Shown: positions 1 to 7,314 of the stretch, piece after piece | Layout of the letters: the number at the start of each line of letters is the position of its first letter | Position numbering within the stretch: the first letter of the stretch is position 1 | Source of the DNA: an uncultured Spirochaetota bacterium | GTDB lineage: Bacteria; Spirochaetota; Spirochaetia; Treponematales; Rectinemataceae | Direction: 5' to 3' | DNA: 53,152 bases | Assembly: GCA_903821875.1 (NCBI GenBank) | Contig: CAIJMU010000162.1 | Coordinates: 1 to 53,152 of the forward strand | The notes under the pieces: generated by a model | What the model saw: the letters and a program-made list of their open reading frames with translations, nothing else | Told to the model about the DNA's origin: nothing | The model's database searches: none | Program-made: the position numbers and the translations under genes

Positions 1-120
1 CGAAGCGTTTGGCGGAGCCGAGCGAAGCGTTTGGCGGAGCCGAGCGAAGCGTTTGGCGGAGCCGAGCGAAGCGTTTGGCGGAGCCGAGCGAAGCGTTTGG
101 CGGAGCCGAGCGAAGCGTTA
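1..120. repeat. 22-bp tandem repeat array, running off the left edge
   Basis: Five exact copies of a 22-bp unit (CGAAGCGTTTGGCGGAGCCG plus AG) start at base 1 and are followed by a partial sixth copy that ends in CGAAGCGTTA. The array stops exactly where a GroEL-like reading frame begins at 122, so it borders the groEL remnant. There are no spacers, so this is not a CRISPR. Related single units recur at 181-620, 5591-5925 and near 53090. The array continues upstream of the window, so its copy number is unknown. Confidence 0.95.
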
Positions 121-121
121 G

Positions 122-720
122 GACACCACCAGCGACTACGACAAGGAGAAGCTCCAGGAGCGCCTTGCCAAGCTCGCCGGCTTTGGCGCGATCATTTGGA
201 CGAAGTTTAGCGGAGCGTTAGCGCCAAATGCATCGCCCTCATCCAGGCCTCTCTGGCCCTCGACAAGGTCGACCTCTCCAAGATGACCGACGACGAGAAG
301 GTCGGCTTCCGCATCGCAAAGCGCGCCCTTGAACGCAGTATAGCGAAGCGTTAGGAGCCAATCCGTCAGATCGCTGAACGCAGTCTAGCGGAACGGAGTC
401 TAGCGAAGCGTTAGCCGAAGGCGGAGCGTTAGAACGCCGGCATCGGTCCGATCATTTAAGGACCGATAGGTTCGATCATCGCCGACAAGGCCAAGCTCGA
501 GAAGAAGGGCATTGGTTTCGATTCGGTAGCCCGCCGCGAGGCGGGCATAGTCACCGTCTTCAATCCTTGCCGTACAGCGAGCGGAGCCTAGCGAACGAAG
601 TGAGCGTTAGCGAAGCGAGCTATGCCGCCAAGATGGAGTGGACCGACATGATCAAGGCCGGCATCATCGATGCCGCCAAGGTCACCAGGAGCGCCCTCCA
701 GAACGCAGCCTCCGTGGCAG
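122..720 (+). pseudogene. groEL: groEL C-terminal remnant, split by short repeats
   Basis: Separate blocks read as consecutive pieces of the chaperonin GroEL. They are [20 protein letters not shown] at 122-181, an equatorial-domain block containing [15 protein letters not shown] at 229-333, EPIRQIAE at 355-378, NAGI plus [19 protein letters not shown] at 433-527, and a block with [12 protein letters not shown] and [15 protein letters not shown] at 621-720. Between the blocks lie stop-containing repeats of the GAACGNAGTNTAGCG and GAAGCGTTAG type. About 43 residues normally found between LAG and the ALIQA block are missing. The final GGM tail is absent, and the frame after 725 runs into unrelated sequence. 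GroEL assignment is by recognition of the family motifs; a functional product is very unlikely. Confidence 0.85.
181..620 (+). repeat. Dispersed GAACG/TAGCGAAGCG repeats inside the groEL remnant
   Basis: Copies lie at about 181-228, 331-354, 376-432 and 568-620, each placed between GroEL-coding blocks. Shared modules are GAACGCAGTCTAGCG and GAAGCGTTAG, sometimes stacked two or three times. They introduce TAG codons and frame changes. The array unit at 1-120 shares the GCGAAGCGTT core. Nothing in them looks like a transposase or an integrase site. Confidence 0.8.
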
Positions 721-735
721 CCATTCGATCAAGAG

Positions 736-1235
736 CCGCACTGCCCAAGTTTGTGACGCTGGGAAATGGTGAGCGTTTCAAGGTGACGGTGTGGAATGGT
801 GTTGAAACAATTAAGCCGCAGGGAAGTGAGCTTTATTCCGATGGTAAATACTGTATTCTTTTTGGCGCTGTCGATCAACTGGATCGGCAAAACAGGGGTT
901 CTTGACCGTAGGTTGTAAATGATGATGACACTTAAAATGGAAATTGAGCACGCACAAAAACACTTGCGTGCCTTGCGCCAACGCGTGAAAGTATTGAAAA
1001 GCAACAGCGAGCCTATGCCATTTAGTATGTTCGATTCCTCGACCCGGAAATGGGAACTTGCCAGCCTGCCGTATCCTCGGGCCGGACGGACATGGCCGGA
1101 GCTTGCGTATGAACCGACAGACGCGGGGGATGCGGCGGCGGACCATCCTTGCGCGTCTTCTCGGCCGCGTTCGCGATTCTTAATGTCGGCTATGGCAGCC
1201 GCGGCAGCAATCAGCCATATTTATCCCAAGAGGCC
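736..1235. other. Lower-GC stretch without a recognisable gene
   Basis: After the groEL homology ends, an open frame continues to 905 (containing [15 protein letters not shown]), and another open frame runs from 919 to 1239 with a short basic helix-like start. Base composition is visibly more AT-rich than in the flanking genes up to about 1030. I do not recognise either product. The first is fused to the groEL remnant rather than having its own start. The second overlaps the start of the caspase gene, so neither is called as a gene. Confidence 0.5.
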
Positions 1236-4200
1236 ATGATGAACCGGAAACTCCTGCTCGCCTTTTTCGTCCTTCTGTCGGTCGCCCAGCTTCTCCCCGC
1301 CCAGGACCGCTTCGCCCTGGTCATAGGGAACGGCAACTACTCGTCGATCCCCAAGCTGAAGAACCCGGTCAACGACGCCAGCGACATGGCCGACGCCCTG
1401 CGCGGTCTGGGCTTCAAGGTCGACCTGCTCAGGGACGCGAACCTTGGCGACATGGAGGCCGGGGTCATCCGCCTCGGCAACCAGCTCGGACAATCCCCGG
1501 GTTCCTATGGATTCTTCTTCTATGCCGGCCACGGCATCCAGTCCAACGGCATCAACTACCTGATCCCCGCCGACGCGCAGATCGCGGGCGAGGCCTTCCT
1601 GAAGAGCAAGGCCCTGGCGGCACAATCCGTCCTCGACACCCTCCAGCAGGCCGGGAACGGCCTCAACGTCGTTGTGCTGGACGCTTGCCGCGACAACCCC
1701 TTCAGCTGGGCGCGGGGCGGGAACCGGGGATTGTCGGTCGTGGGGACCCAACCTCCCGGCTCGATCATCGCCTATGCAACGAGCGCCGGTTCCGTCGCGC
1801 AGGACGGGGACGGACGGAACGGGCTTTTCACGAGCCAGCTCCTCAAGCACTTGAGGACCCCGGGACTCGAGATCAAGGAGGTCTTCAACCGTACGGGCGC
1901 CGATGTCGTCAGCGTCAGCAACAACAAGCAGGTGCCTGCGATCTACAACCAGTTCTTCAAGTCGGCCTGGCTCGCGGGAGCGCAGGAGGAGAAGCCATTG
2001 GCTCAGGCCGCCGCCCCCAGCCGGGCCGTGACCGTCTCGGTCAAGGGCGCCGAGGCCTGGAAAGGAAGCGGCATCAGGCTCGAGAAGGGCCAGGCCTATT
2101 CGATTTCGACGGTCTCCGGTCCCGAGGGCGGCGTCAACATCGCCGTGGGCCTGCGCGACGGATACTGGGACAAGTTCAACGGTCCGGCCGGCGCGCCGCG
2201 CGGTGAGACTCCTCGGTCCGCCGACAAGGCCAATGCCGGGACCTACCCTCTTCCTGACGCGCCTGTGGGGTCCCTCGCGGGACGGATCGGCGCGGACGGC
2301 CCTCCCTTCCTGGTGGGCTCAGGTGGAAGCTTCGTCGCGGCCTCGGCAGGAGAGCTCTTCTTTGAGGTGAATGACAGCAAGTACACCAATAACGCCGGCT
2401 CCCTCTCCGTGACGGTGACGAGATCGGGCGACTCCTCGGCTAGCGCCGCCACGCCTGGAACCGCTCTGCCCGCCACCGCCGTGGCGAGCGCCGTCCCCGA
2501 AACCGGCATACCCCGGAGGGGCCTCGTGAGCGAGTGGCTCTTCAACGGTGACACGAAGGACTCCGTCAAGCGCCGCACGGGCAAGGTGGTCGACGTGACG
2601 CTCGGCAGCGATCGCTTCGGCCGGGACCGGAGCGCGGGATACTTCAACGGCACGACGAGCGGCATCGACATGGGGGCGGTGTTCACGAAACCGATGAGCG
2701 AATGGAGCGTCTCCCTCTGGTTCGACCTCGCCGCTCTCACCAGGACCCAGAGACAAGTGGAATTCACCCGAAGTCCCCTGCTCAGCAACTGGAACCGGTG
2801 GATACAGGGTGCGCAGCGGGGTTGGATCTGGGAATTCGGCTACAACTCTAAGTATAACCAAGCCTCAATGGATGTGGTGACCTGCGATGGGAAAATGGAG
2901 AAAGGCTTCGGAAGTCCTGCGTCCAACTCCGATAGCTTCGAGAAGGGCTTGAAGGATCGCTGGGTCCACGCCTGTCTCGTGGTCAAGAATGGCAAAGGAG
3001 TGATGTACCTGGACGGAAGCGTCTCCCAGGCGGGAAGCGCCGCCACGGCCATGGTCCCCGACCCGGATTCCCCGCTCTGGATGGGTCGAAGCGACATCGA
3101 CCGCGATGACAAGGGAAACCCGGTGGATTTCTTCAACGGGGCCATCGACGACGTCCGGCTCTACGACCGGGCCCTGGAGGACGACGAGGTGCTGGCCCTG
3201 ATCGATGAGACACCCGAGTCCTCCCCCGTGGCTGTCTCGACGGCCTCGATGCCTCTGCCGCGGAAGGGCCTCGTGAGCGAGTGGCTCTTCAACGGCGACA
3301 CGAAGGACTCCGTCAAGCGCCGCGCGGGCAAGGTGATCGATGTCATGCTCGGCCAGGATCGCTTCGGGAAGGACAGGGCCGCGGGAGACTTCAACGGGAG
3401 GACAAGCGCTATCGACGCGGGCAGGATCTTCGAGAAGCCCGTGCCGGAATGGAGCGTCTCGGTCTGGTACATGGCAAGGAGTCTTTATCACCCGGCCCCC
3501 GCAGTGGGTGTTTCGGTGGGCATCCTCGTGAGCAACTGGAACCGCTGGGTGGCCGGGGGCCAGAAGGGCTTCCAGTTCGGCCATTTCGTGAACACGAAGG
3601 ATGGAGGTGCCGCACTCAGCGTCACCGTCTGCGACGGGGCGAGGGATGGCATGTTCGGCGTCGACTGGAAGCCCTTGCCGGAATACGAGGCCGGGCACCT
3701 CGGCAAATGGATGCATGCCTGCCTGGTCGTAAAGGGCACGGTGGCGACGATCTACCTGGACGGCGTGAAGGCCGGCGTGGGGAAGGTGGCGGGACCCATG
3801 GTTCCCGATCTCGACACCGCCCTCTGGATCGGCCACTCCGAGATGAACAAGGAGCCGACCAAGGACGGGGGCTGGAGAGACATCAACTACTTCGACGGCG
3901 CCTTGGACGACATCAGGATCTACGACCGGGCCCTCGGGGAGGACGAGGTGCTCGCCCTGCTCGAGGAGACGCCCGAGTCCACCCCCGTGGTCGCCGCTCC
4001 GGCGCCGGTTCCACCACCCCGGAACGGCCTCGTGAGCGAGTGGCTCTTCAACGGCGACACGAAGGATTCCGTCAAGCGGCGCCTGGGCAAGGTGGCCGAC
4101 GTCACGCTCGGCAGCGACCGCTTCGGGCAGGAATCCCATGCGGCCGGTTTCAATGGCAGTACGAGTTACATCGACATGGGCAGGCTCTTCCAGAACCCCG

Positions 4201-4733
4201 TGCGGGAGATGAGCGCTTCGCTGTGGTTCTTCATGGAAAGGCTCACGAGAAGCTCCAGTCCCAAGGTGCAGATGACCCGGAGCCCCCTCATCTCCAACTG
4301 GAACAAATATGTCGAAGGCGGGCAAAAAGGCATTATCTGGAACTTCATGTTCGGCGAGAATTACCAATTCGGAGGGATGAGCCTTGCCTTCAACGACGGA
4401 CGCTCGCAGGTTGCGGTCTCCCTCGACCGCCTGGCCAAGGCCGATCTCGAAAAGCGATACGTCGGCCGATGGATCCATGCCTGCTTTGTCATGAAGGACA
4501 GCCAGGCATCCGTCTACATCGATGGCGTCCTGGCGACCAGACAGAAGGCGGTAGCCGAAATGGTGCCGGAGGACAGTCCCGTCTACCTGGGACGATCGGA
4601 TGTTGACAACGACGGAATCGCCGGATCGGGGAAGCCGATCGACTTCTTCACGGGGTCCATCGACGATGTACGCATCTACGATCGCGCCCTCGAAGAGGAC
4701 GAGGTCCTCGCCCTCTTCGAGGAGCTCAGGTAG
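1236..4733 (+). CDS. Secreted caspase-like (C14) protein with a lectin-like domain and three LamG-type repeats
   Basis: The protein is about 1165 residues. The start ATGATG at 1236/1239 was chosen because AAGAGG lies just upstream and a signal peptide follows (residues 1-23, ending LLPAQ). Residues 24-275 form a caspase-family peptidase domain with the catalytic His in YAGHG (H99) and Cys in LDACRDNPF (C151), so the dyad looks intact. Residues 290-425 resemble the PA-IL/LecA-type beta-sandwich (AWKGSGIRLEKG, then APVGSLAGRIG and GPPFLVGSG). Three concanavalin-like repeats of about 250 residues start near 427, 677 and 930, each opening with GLVSEWLFNGDTKDSVKRR and closing with DVRLYDRALEDDEVLAL-type sequence. 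It is likely exported and may bind glycans or surface ligands while cleaving proteins. The substrate is unknown. Its last 8 bases overlap the convergent cyclase gene. Confidence 0.85.
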   Translation: MMNRKLLLAFFVLLSVAQLLPAQDRFALVIGNGNYSSIPKLKNPVNDASDMADALRGLGFKVDLLRDANLGDMEAGVIRLGNQLGQSPGSYGFFFYAGHGIQSNGINYLIPADAQIAGEAFLKSKALAAQSVLDTLQQAGNGLNVVVLDACRDNPFSWARGGNRGLSVVGTQPPGSIIAYATSAGSVAQDGDGRNGLFTSQLLKHLRTPGLEIKEVFNRTGADVVSVSNNKQVPAIYNQFFKSAWLAGAQEEKPLAQAAAPSRAVTVSVKGAEAWKGSGIRLEKGQAYSISTVSGPEGGVNIAVGLRDGYWDKFNGPAGAPRGETPRSADKANAGTYPLPDAPVGSLAGRIGADGPPFLVGSGGSFVAASAGELFFEVNDSKYTNNAGSLSVTVTRSGDSSASAATPGTALPATAVASAVPETGIPRRGLVSEWLFNGDTKDSVKRRTGKVVDVTLGSDRFGRDRSAGYFNGTTSGIDMGAVFTKPMSEWSVSLWFDLAALTRTQRQVEFTRSPLLSNWNRWIQGAQRGWIWEFGYNSKYNQASMDVVTCDGKMEKGFGSPASNSDSFEKGLKDRWVHACLVVKNGKGVMYLDGSVSQAGSAATAMVPDPDSPLWMGRSDIDRDDKGNPVDFFNGAIDDVRLYDRALEDDEVLALIDETPESSPVAVSTASMPLPRKGLVSEWLFNGDTKDSVKRRAGKVIDVMLGQDRFGKDRAAGDFNGRTSAIDAGRIFEKPVPEWSVSVWYMARSLYHPAPAVGVSVGILVSNWNRWVAGGQKGFQFGHFVNTKDGGAALSVTVCDGARDGMFGVDWKPLPEYEAGHLGKWMHACLVVKGTVATIYLDGVKAGVGKVAGPMVPDLDTALWIGHSEMNKEPTKDGGWRDINYFDGALDDIRIYDRALGEDEVLALLEETPESTPVVAAPAPVPPPRNGLVSEWLFNGDTKDSVKRRLGKVADVTLGSDRFGQESHAAGFNGSTSYIDMGRLFQNPVREMSASLWFFMERLTRSSSPKVQMTRSPLISNWNKYVEGGQKGIIWNFMFGENYQFGGMSLAFNDGRSQVAVSLDRLAKADLEKRYVGRWIHACFVMKDSQASVYIDGVLATRQKAVAEMVPEDSPVYLGRSDVDNDGIAGSGKPIDFFTGSIDDVRIYDRALEEDEVLALFEELR

Positions 4734-5379
4734 CGGGCGCGCCGAGGAGGGCTGGGGCGCTGCCCGCGGCGGTGCCGGCCTCTCCCTCGAGCACGTAGGC
4801 CTCGACGGGTATGTCGTAGCCCTTCGCCTTGACGGCCAAGACCCCGCCGAGGAGGAAGCCCGGGCCCGCGAGGTCCCGCGTCGCCGAGGAGGCCAGGATG
4901 CCCCCGACCGGGGCGTTGCCCTCCATGCGCTGGGCGAGGTTGACCGCCGGGCCGATCACTGTGTACTCGATGCGGCTCTTCGGGCCGAGATTGCCGACGA
5001 TCACGCGGCCGGAATTGACGCCGATTCGGATCCGGAGGTCGATAGCGGCGCGCTCCCTCCACTCGGCGGCGATCTCCCGCGCCCGGACCTGCATGGCGAG
5101 CGCCGCACGGAGGGCCCGCGCCGCATGGTCCGGTTGCTCCACCGGGTCGCCGAAGAAGGCCATGATCCCGTCGCCCATGAATTTATCGACCGTCGCGCCG
5201 TGCTCGAAGAGGATGGCTGACATCGAATCGAGGTAATTGGAAAGGAATTCATGCACCAGCTCCGGGCTCTTGTCCGAACTCCAGCCGGTGAAGTTGGAGA
5301 TGTCCGCGAAGAGGATCGAGAGCTCCTTGCTCTCGGGCTTGAGGTCGGCCCTCCGCTCCCCGAGGACACGGGCGGCCAA
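4726..5379 (-). CDS. Class III adenylate/guanylate cyclase catalytic domain, probably 5'-truncated
   Basis: Makes a cyclic nucleotide (probably cAMP) from an NTP. The reading frame contains the full catalytic core: the first metal Asp in ILFADISNFTGW, the second in KFMGDGIMAFFGDP, and the transition-state Asn/Arg pair in GPAVNLAQRMEG. The only start near the domain is TTG at 5379. The frame is open upstream to 5481 (HEDRVLLENTLSRYFPRALA), a linker typical of larger cyclases, but no ATG follows the upstream stop. The normal N-terminal sensor domain is therefore missing, and at about 5460 the sequence switches to an unrelated CheB-like piece. Activity without its sensor is possible but unproven. 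Confidence 0.8.
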   Translation of the reverse strand: MAARVLGERRADLKPESKELSILFADISNFTGWSSDKSPELVHEFLSNYLDSMSAILFEHGATVDKFMGDGIMAFFGDPVEQPDHAARALRAALAMQVRAREIAAEWRERAAIDLRIRIGVNSGRVIVGNLGPKSRIEYTVIGPAVNLAQRMEGNAPVGGILASSATRDLAGPGFLLGGVLAVKAKGYDIPVEAYVLEGEAGTAAGSAPALLGAPAT

Positions 5380-5459: not shown

Positions 5460-5531
5460 GTCGAGCCCAATAGCGCCTACATCATCCCACCCAACCGCGA
5501 TATGGCCTTCCTGAATGTGGCGAATTCCCCG
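5460..5531 (+). pseudogene. Short CheB methylesterase-like fragment
   Basis: One frame reads VEPNSAYIIPPNRDMAFLN, which matches the conserved stretch of the CheB methylesterase domain as found in CheB-CheR hybrid signalling proteins (consensus VEPNHVYVIPPN.DM). It has no start, no remaining domain and stops at TGA near 5540. It directly abuts the broken N-terminus of the opposite-strand cyclase. This is family recognition from a short stretch only. Confidence 0.45.
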
Positions 5532-5810
5532 AAGGTCTGGTGACTTGACACCATGCCGGTGGCCAAGGGCCTGCCAGCCGCCTCAGCGTAATATTAGCGC
5601 TCCGCTAGACTTCGTTCGGCGATCAAGGCGAAGATCAGCTTCCCAATGCCAGCGAACAGCGATCGATCCCACTTAAGGAATCCGCGCAGCGCCTTTGGAA
5701 TCGTCCATCGCGAACTTCGTTCGCGCCGAACTGCCGGTGCGGTAGCCTGAGGAGCAGGTCGTCAGCCAGGTACTCCCCGAGGAGGAGGGTCCGCTTTTGT
5801 CCACAAGAAG
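5532..5810. other. Degenerate gap between gene fragments, with inverted repeat copies
   Basis: No gene is supported here. An inverted copy of the dispersed repeat lies at about 5591-5620 (its reverse complement reads CGAACGAAGTCTAGCGGAGCG). A small palindrome, GCGAACTTCGTTCGC, sits near 5709. The opposite-strand frame at 5673-5882 is open, but I recognise nothing in it. Confidence 0.5.
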
Positions 5811-5814
5811 GGCA

Positions 5815-6117
5815 AAGGAAGACGTCATCGGCCAGATCAAGCGCCAGTTCGAACGAAGTATAGCGGAGCGAGCCGGAGGCATAGCGAAGCGTTTGGCGTA
5901 GCCGAGCGAAGCGTTAGCGCCAAATGTATCGCCCTCATCCAGGCCTCACTGGCCCTCGACAAGGTCGACCTCTCCAAGATGACCGACGACGAGAAGGTCG
6001 GCTTCCGCATCGCAAAGCGCGCCCTCGAACGTAGCGTAGCGTTAGCCGAAGGCCCCCATGGGCGGCTGCGGCTGTGGTGGAATGGGCCGCATGGGCGGAA
6101 TGGGCGGAATGGACTAC
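5815..6117 (+). pseudogene. groEL: Second groEL remnant, with the Gly-Met C-terminal tail
   Basis: A piece reading KEDVIGQIKRQ (5815-5850) fits the GroEL segment just before DTTSDYD. After a repeat cluster comes a block from 5928 to 6029 almost identical at DNA level to 229-333 of the first remnant ([18 protein letters not shown]). A further repeat then joins directly to the typical C-terminal tail MGGCGCGGMGRMGGMGGMDY at 6058-6117. The DTTSDYD...LAG block present in the first remnant is absent, as is everything between RALE and the tail. The tail frame runs past the usual stop. A perfect terminator follows at 6151. Not functional. Confidence 0.8.
5851..5925 (+). repeat. Dispersed repeat cluster inside the second groEL remnant
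   Basis: The stretch opens with GAACGAAGTATAGCGGAGCG, continues with ATAGCGAAGCGTTTGGCGTAGCC and ends with GAGCGAAGCGTTAGCGCC. It joins the KRQ block to the TGTATCGCCCTCATC block. The right junction (GCGTTAGCGCCAAATG) is the same as the junction at 215-230 in the first remnant. That means this repeat was in place before the two remnants diverged. Confidence 0.8.
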
Positions 6118-6150
6118 TCATCCAAAGCCAGCACTCTGCTGCATGAAGAG

Positions 6151-6176
6151 GCGCCCGCAAGGGCGCTTCTTTTTTT
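6151..6176 (+). terminator. groEL: Rho-independent terminator after the groEL tail
   Basis: GCGCCC and GGGCGC form a perfect 6-bp stem with a GCAA tetraloop, followed at once by TTCTTTTTTT. Its position 34 bases after the GGMDY codons suggests it is the original groEL terminator. It should still act on any transcript crossing the region. Confidence 0.85.
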
Positions 6177-6204
6177 CGGCCACCCATGCCGCTGGTGGGG
6201 ATCG

Positions 6205-6241
6205 ACGAAGCGTAGCTTCGTTGCGCCACGCTTGCGTGGCG
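6205..6241. repeat. Two adjacent small hairpins
   Basis: ACGAAGC-GTA-GCTTCGT at 6205-6221 is followed by CGCCACGC-TT-GCGTGGCG at 6224-6241. Both stems are perfect with 2-3 base loops. They lie in a gap and resemble mobile intergenic hairpin repeats. No T-run follows, so they are not called terminators. Confidence 0.6.
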
Positions 6242-6294
6242 AGGTATGGCCGGCAGGACTGCTACAGCAACCCGTCAAGGTTTATTAATCCAAA

Positions 6295-6319
6295 GGCGTC
6301 CCACTCAGGACGCCTTTTT
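6295..6319 (+). terminator. Rho-independent terminator upstream of the hicB fragment
   Basis: GGCGTCC at 6295-6301 and GGACGCC at 6308-6314 pair perfectly around a 6-base loop, followed by TTTTT. It closes off whatever was transcribed before the hicB fragment. No intact gene remains directly upstream. Confidence 0.75.
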
Positions 6320-6348
6320 GCAGCCGTAGATCACGGAGGAAGACCAGC

Positions 6349-6489
6349 ATGAAGCGCGAATTCAACGTCGTTATCGAAAGGGATTCCGAGGGCATACTCA
6401 TTGCCTCGGTGCCGAGCCTCCGGGAATGCCATACGCAAGCCACATCGCAGGATGAGCTCTTCGCCGTACAAGAGACTTTGGACCGATAA
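6349..6489 (+). pseudogene. HicB-like antitoxin, 5' portion only
   Basis: The 46-residue frame begins MKREFNVVIERDSEGILIASV and continues PSLRECHTQATSQDELF, the typical start of short HicB-family antitoxins (partly RNase H-like fold). A good Shine-Dalgarno, ACGGAGGA, lies 8 bases before the ATG. Homology stops at about 6467; the remaining codons to TAA at 6487 are the reverse complement of the AAA ATPase fragment below. Its C-terminal half and any HicA partner are missing. A second, more complete copy lies at 7153-7314, about 85% identical by eye. Confidence 0.7.
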
Positions 6490-7139: not shown

Positions 7140-7152
7140 TTTGCCCTACCGA

Positions 7153-7314
7153 GGATTCAACGTCGTCAACGAAAGGGATTCCGATGGCGTACTCATAGCC
7201 TCAGTACCGAGCCTTCGTGGATGCCACACGCAGGCGGCATCGCAGGATGAGCTCCTCGCCAGGGTCAAGGAAGCCATCGAGCCCTGCTTCGCGGTAAAAC
7301 CCAGGGCCGGCTGA
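7153..7314 (+). pseudogene. HicB-like antitoxin, second copy lacking its start
   Basis: The frame GFNVVNERDSDGVLIASV...PSLRGCHTQAASQDELLARVKEAIEPC...RAG ends at a natural TGA (7312-7314). It supplies the C-terminal half missing from the 6349 copy. The initiating MKRE is lost at the junction with the opposite-strand brnT fragment near 7145. The two copies are direct repeats flanking about 690 bases of inverted foreign gene pieces. Confidence 0.7.

Follow-up and report, generated by a model that had tools for sequence, protein, structure and literature searches.

Two groEL remnants, A and B, on contig C162 and a third groEL fragment on contig C160 are incomplete and non-functional duplicates of the resident groEL gene, in a decaying, transposon-containing stretch of a Spirochaetota genome. 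The remnants produce no GroEL, and the repeats found in them serve as insertion and recombination points. They show, in several genera together, how repeats bring about the erosion of duplicated gene parts, the junctions of which can still be read.

The window analysed is the entire contig C162 (53,152 nt). The source genome (G000) comprises 4.68 Mb in 193 contigs and has a single intact groEL, near the end of contig C154; apart from this gene, no match to the Cpn60 family was found in the genome. At the C154 end (L002 3340–3451) the intact groEL is without the usual stop and terminator, and continues for 24 codons into hairpin-rich sequence (MDYDASPSVGSRRTPCDGP...).

Structure of the groEL remnants

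Alignment of the intact groEL to the window shows that remnant A (122–722) consists of five groEL pieces and remnant B (5826–6117) of three, with gene order kept (Table 1). The pieces are 89–100% identical to groEL, and the reading frame is destroyed, with pieces missing and stop codons inside the matches. Together, A and B are identical to the genome's own intact groEL at 532 of 547 positions (97.3%, 15 differences) and to the groEL of the same-genus genome G001 at 464 of 533 (87.1%, 69 differences). Chance is excluded both for the main groEL match of B (E=8e-49) and for the repeat core, which has 12 matches in the window vs 0.15 expected.

Table 1. Features of the groEL remnants and adjoining sequences in the window; groEL positions are those of the gene.
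Positions	Strand	Feature
1–121	+	Array of 5.4 tandem 22-bp repeats (CGAAGCGTTTGGCGGAGCCGAG) with AGCGAAGCGTTAG at its end; begins at the contig end
122–181	+	groEL 1060–1119 (DTTSDYD...LAG block), 100% to intact groEL; not in B
182–229	+	GATCATTTG-loop hairpin insert, stem TTTGGCGC/GCGCCAAA, with nested 21–22-nt repeat
209–221	+	13-nt repeat AGCGGAGCGTTAG, partner of 109–121 in the deletion giving remnant B
230–332	+	groEL 1244–1346, 98% to intact groEL
333–353	+	21-nt repeat ACGCAGTATAGCGAAGCGTTA inserted into groEL GA|G without target duplication
353–378	+	groEL 1346–1371
379–432	+	Compound insert, several of these repeat units
442–467	+	Second hairpin, loop GATCATTTAA, different 8-bp stem ATCGGTCC/GGACCGAT
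469–522	+	groEL 1387–1440
523–621	+	Hairpin-rich insert; sequence in common with G025 insert at same groEL site
622–722	+	groEL 1439–1539; remnant A ends here
5513–5822	-	Truncated IS91-type transposase remnant, related to the C160 copy; broken by 21–22-nt repeat at 5594–5615
5826–5853	+	groEL 1032–1059; remnant B begins here
5854–5927	+	Repeat array; 5905–5917 is the hybrid junction of A's two repeat copies
5928–6028	+	groEL 1246–1346, 100% to intact groEL
6029–6053	+	Repeat remnant fused to groEL 1580 via AGCCGAAGGC
6044–6117	+	groEL 1580–1653 (glycine-methionine tail), 93% to intact groEL
about 6145–6176	+	Native-type groEL terminator hairpin, 12-bp GC-rich, T tail (folding)
6177–6345	+	Inverted groEL tail motif copy (ACCCATGCCGC), hairpins, second terminator-like hairpin

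Several partial copies highly identical to one intact gene, in a spirochaete, bring to mind silent donor cassettes such as those of Borrelia vls or Treponema tprK, which here would feed variation into the expressed groEL. Such a role is hardly credible, as the stop codons and palindromic inserts would destroy GroEL if copied, no variable regions were seen, and the differences are few.

The start of remnant B had been placed at 5815, but groEL homology begins only at ∼5826; the preceding bases belong to the truncated IS91-type transposase on the minus strand, which is fused to B. On C160, the groEL fragment (groEL 542–919, 95.4% to the genome's own groEL over ungapped positions) is at the contig end and adjoins an open IS91-type transposase gene, whose 442-aa protein has Zn_Tnp_IS91 and Y2_Tnp domains. 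The repeat that interrupts groEL also interrupts the IS91 remnant, so both the gene copies and the transposon debris received units. IS91 family transposases move neighbouring DNA by one-ended transposition; the copy at B is broken, and end sites were not identified.

At its 3′ end, remnant B retains the gene tail and terminator, which A, stopping at groEL 1539, lacks, in agreement with the original prediction. The terminator was shown by folding and had been overlooked by a terminator scan; it resembles the terminators that follow intact groEL in G008, G009 and G010. The sequence beyond it loosely follows the layout found 3′ of intact groEL in relatives. In G002, G008, G009, G010 and G011 the terminator of intact groEL is succeeded by the groEL-tail motif in inverted orientation, by hairpins and by another direct copy of the gene end, and this arrangement is sometimes serial.

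Other features of this part of the window are a large protein that combines a caspase-type peptidase domain with three laminin-G-like repeats (1149–4733), a minus-strand guanylate/adenylate cyclase catalytic domain, apparently without its N-terminal part (4726–5379), and a 111-nt direct repeat (6355–6465 vs 7150–7260, 85%) that looks like two copies of a putative HicB-type gene start.

Junctions and deletions in remnant B

The original prediction held that a repeat junction and about 100 following bases are nearly identical in the two remnants, that the DTTSDYD-LAG block, flanked by repeats in A, is missing from B, and that recombination between repeats explains the loss. Pairwise alignment confirms the first two and gives good support to the third. 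A 209–354 aligns to B 5905–6045 over 146 columns at 93%, which includes GCGTTAGCGCCAAATG and about 100 nt of groEL, and the array to the left of the DTTSDYD block (A 87–121) aligns to B 5883–5917 at 34 of 35 positions. The two matches overlap on B 5905–5917 (AGCGAAGCGTTAG), and the B junction is an exact hybrid of the repeats that flank the block in A. Copies of this 13-nt sequence are present in A at 109–121 (13/13) and 209–221 (12/13), at a spacing of exactly 100 bp. The stretch missing from B, groEL 1060–1119 plus half a hairpin insert, is also exactly 100 bp. Since B is without exactly the 100 bp between the 13-nt copies, recombination between repeats (or slippage) is a well-supported explanation of the loss.

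In a second deletion in B, a repeat unit was joined to groEL 1580 via AGCCGAAGGC, a short repeat found in both the array and groEL; B 6032–6053 matches A 401–422 at 21 of 22 positions.

It had also been proposed that the repeat was inserted before the duplication. Three shared junctions (groEL 1059/1060, about 1244 and 1346) agree with this order of events, but the history it gives is incomplete. A simple history of insertion, duplication and deletion is insufficient: both remnants are near-identical to a resident groEL that is still intact, C160 has a third fragment, and some inserts occupy the same groEL sites in other genera even though the coding pieces are closest to the gene of their own genome. 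Homogenisation or repeated duplication must be added to it.

Repeat units and hairpin inserts

The commonest unit is ∼21–22 nt in length, with the consensus ACGNAGTNTAGCGNAGCGTTA(G); the repeat units end in GTTAG, which brings integron attC arrays to mind. Genome-wide counts for the source genome are from pattern searches, and 16 places are within 3 mismatches of the unit, 12 of them in C162 1–6000 or C160; the reversed pattern, used as a control, gave 4 matches. Filled and empty sites, read by eye from the sequences, reveal that the unit enters between GA and a purine (R), with no target duplication greater than 1 nt. Such sites in the window are groEL 1059, 1346 and 1371 and the IS91 remnant. 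Further filled/empty pairs are the G009 vs G001 hairpin loop, the G025 vs G010 groEL and the C160 vs G008 array.

Among genome contigs, the exact 22-nt unit was found in one Spirochaetota MAG and in a single cyanobacterium, the latter match being at about the chance level estimated from collection size; viral contigs gave no match to it. In G012, a member of the same family, the 21–22-nt unit is present in intergenic CCACGGA...CACGGAG repeats, usually after CCACGGA or CCACGGG (L117, L120–L122, L125, L127, L129, L131).

The second insert type is a hairpin with a constant GATCATTTGA loop (or close variants) on differing perfect stems. At least five Watson-Crick pairs are formed at 16 of 36 distinct occurrences in the DNA examined vs 0.2% of random positions, although the pattern used to collect many of these loci already requires two of the stem pairs.

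Remnants in related genera

A protein search of 30 family genomes detected broken groEL pieces in G001, G002, G008, G009 and G025. The remnants in G001, G002 and G009 are situated 5–9 kb downstream of the intact groEL on the same strand. The genes between intact groEL and remnant differ among these three, and the remnants are therefore not obviously one inherited locus; descent from a single remnant locus downstream of groEL is weakened by these non-matching neighbour genes. The closest gene is the genome's own intact groEL for the remnants of G000, G001 and G002 and for the main G009 block. For the G008 remnant, the own groEL is tied with that of G010, and G025 offers no intact groEL for comparison. 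An intact groEL was found in neither G024 nor G025; G025 has only a remnant, and G024 has chance-level matches only.

Inserts at the same groEL site match across genera. This is the case for A and G001 (44 aligned nt), A and G025, and G009 and G008, each with 0/500 shuffles doing as well; a weaker match, between G001 and G025, also has 0/500. In addition, the G001, G008 and G009 remnants have a common junction at which they depart from groEL at 1242 by way of one hairpin, and the insert after groEL 1242 in these genomes is related to the A 182–229 hairpin.

Insert sites common to genera, together with coding pieces that are like each genome's own gene, suggest gene conversion from the intact groEL. 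The best explanation of the remnants, which we consider probable, begins with a partial duplication of groEL that would have given rise to the copies. Palindromic inserts would then have built up in these, and recombination or slippage between repeats would have removed intervening pieces. Recombination with the intact groEL, i.e. gene conversion, which we infer from the sequences rather than observe, probably keeps the pieces similar to the gene.

Gene conversion would not be needed if part of groEL had been duplicated recently and independently in each genome and mobile palindromic units had later entered at preferred sites; recent separate duplications could look alike if inserts prefer certain groEL sites. 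The closeness of the coding pieces to the own gene, the targeting of GA-purine sites by the 21–22-nt unit and the differing chromosomal neighbourhoods of the remnants fit with such events. However, the shared sites have the same stem and flank (TTYGGCGC...GCGCC), which goes beyond a short target preference, the same nested unit is found at a shared site in G000 A and G001, and G001, G008 and G009 leave groEL at 1242 via one hairpin. Independent duplication is thus rather unlikely, and duplication followed by inserts, deletions and gene conversion is preferred.

A mixture of strains, or repeats misjoined during assembly or binning, might also have generated A, B and the C160 fragment. Remnant A starts at a contig end within a tandem repeat, and C160 ends in a run of 119 bases identical to the intact groEL, which could reflect assembly overlap. 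Such an artefact is nevertheless very improbable: A and B can be told apart from one another and from intact groEL at defined positions, five other, separate genomes have similar remnants, and the source genome is estimated to be 97% complete with 0.3% contamination.

A tRNA-linked element

A search with the GATCATTTGA hairpin led to loci 3′ of tRNA and tmRNA genes. Here a structured element of ∼130 nt (132 model positions) is enclosed by two copies of the tRNA 3′ end, one inverted and one direct, and is often tandem; examples are G000:C96:2307–2438 and L260–L289, e.g. L261, L263 and L266. In seven aligned members, 18 of 32 pairs show compensatory change, and the observed values were unreached in 500 shuffles. 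Both sides of a pair have changed in 34 cells and one side only in a single cell, and slid structures drop to 27–43% paired.

A covariance model (R1) locates the element in 41 of 296 Spirochaetota genomes. Among the best covariance-model matches, a tRNA gene ends just upstream in 27 of 30 loci. A direct copy (at least 10 nt) of the end of this tRNA is present in 25 of the 27, and an inverted copy as well in 20, vs ∼3% in a control with the ends of other tRNAs. In the source genome, the inverted copy was seen at 4 of 29 tRNA genes, three of which also have the direct copy. In the Rfam 15 comparison, only tRNA and SRP RNA attained a gathering score; the element matched no family, and sub-threshold hits either coincided with tRNA genes or scored well short of the cut-off. 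No description was found in the literature searched, most subscription journals being outside the search, and the element is apparently undescribed.

The covariance model has no significant match in the window, and it reaches the G009 remnant through a single hairpin only (E=0.02). What connects the element to the groEL remnants is therefore the hairpins they have in common and a similar layout, not the full element. Several tRNA and tmRNA loci have the layout of gene end, inverted copy and direct copy in exact form; in the window it is seen only loosely, after B (6177–6345), and searches there with exact 12-mers and 9-mers did not exceed controls.

It may tentatively be proposed that a so far undescribed class of spirochaete elements, based on hairpins, becomes established at the 3′ ends of genes with high expression (tRNAs, tmRNA, groEL), the groEL remnants being large decayed products and the hairpins the mobile or recombinogenic units. 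If so, the layout of a hairpin element would be gene end, terminator, inverted gene-end copy, hairpin array and direct gene-end copy. The groEL remnants also lead to a structured tRNA-adjacent element in many Spirochaetota, with flanks that match the 3′ end of whichever tRNA precedes. The making of target-matched inverted and direct copies can be tested with these sequences.

Comparison with known elements

In the Rickettsia palindromic elements, palindromic units are inserted in gene sequence in-frame, and the host gene stays open. Palindromic units lie within gene sequence here too, but the unit puts a stop into the groEL frame of A, and the gene copy is dead. An assignment to this class was rejected, as the unit at 333–353 brings in a TAG and the unit in the IS91 remnant translates as RSLAER*. 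A MITE assignment was likewise rejected on target site duplication, the filled and empty sites showing insertion between GA and a purine with at most 1 nt duplicated.

The REP elements of the GTAG/CGTC families are 20–40-nt repeats, sometimes in genes and often at gene 3′ ends (PMC3733652). The units described here are also short repeats in genes and at 3′ ends, but they are low-copy, fold poorly alone (ACGAAGTCTAGCGAAGCGTTAG, -1.2 kcal/mol, z 0.24; GA-prefixed variant, z -1.69) and have no evident GTAG or CGTC tag at a stem-loop end, as the consensus begins and ends otherwise. Genes for Y1_Tnp transposases are present, yet neither the unit (≤5 mismatches) nor the GATCATTTGA/GATCGTTTGA loop was found at any of the 11 Y1 loci examined. 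A REP/RAYT reading was rejected since these Y1 transposase genes are not flanked by the unit or the loop hairpin.

When an element integrates at the 3′ end of a tRNA gene, that end is found again, in direct orientation, beyond the insert. The tRNA-linked element has such a far-side copy as well; it differs in its additional inverted copy, in being often tandem, and in being too short for an integrase gene.

The losses in remnant B resemble repeat-mediated deletion in bacterial pseudogenes, where the ends lie in short direct repeats and one copy is left at the junction. Here, by contrast, it is inserted palindromic units that act as the repeats, and other genera share some of these sites.
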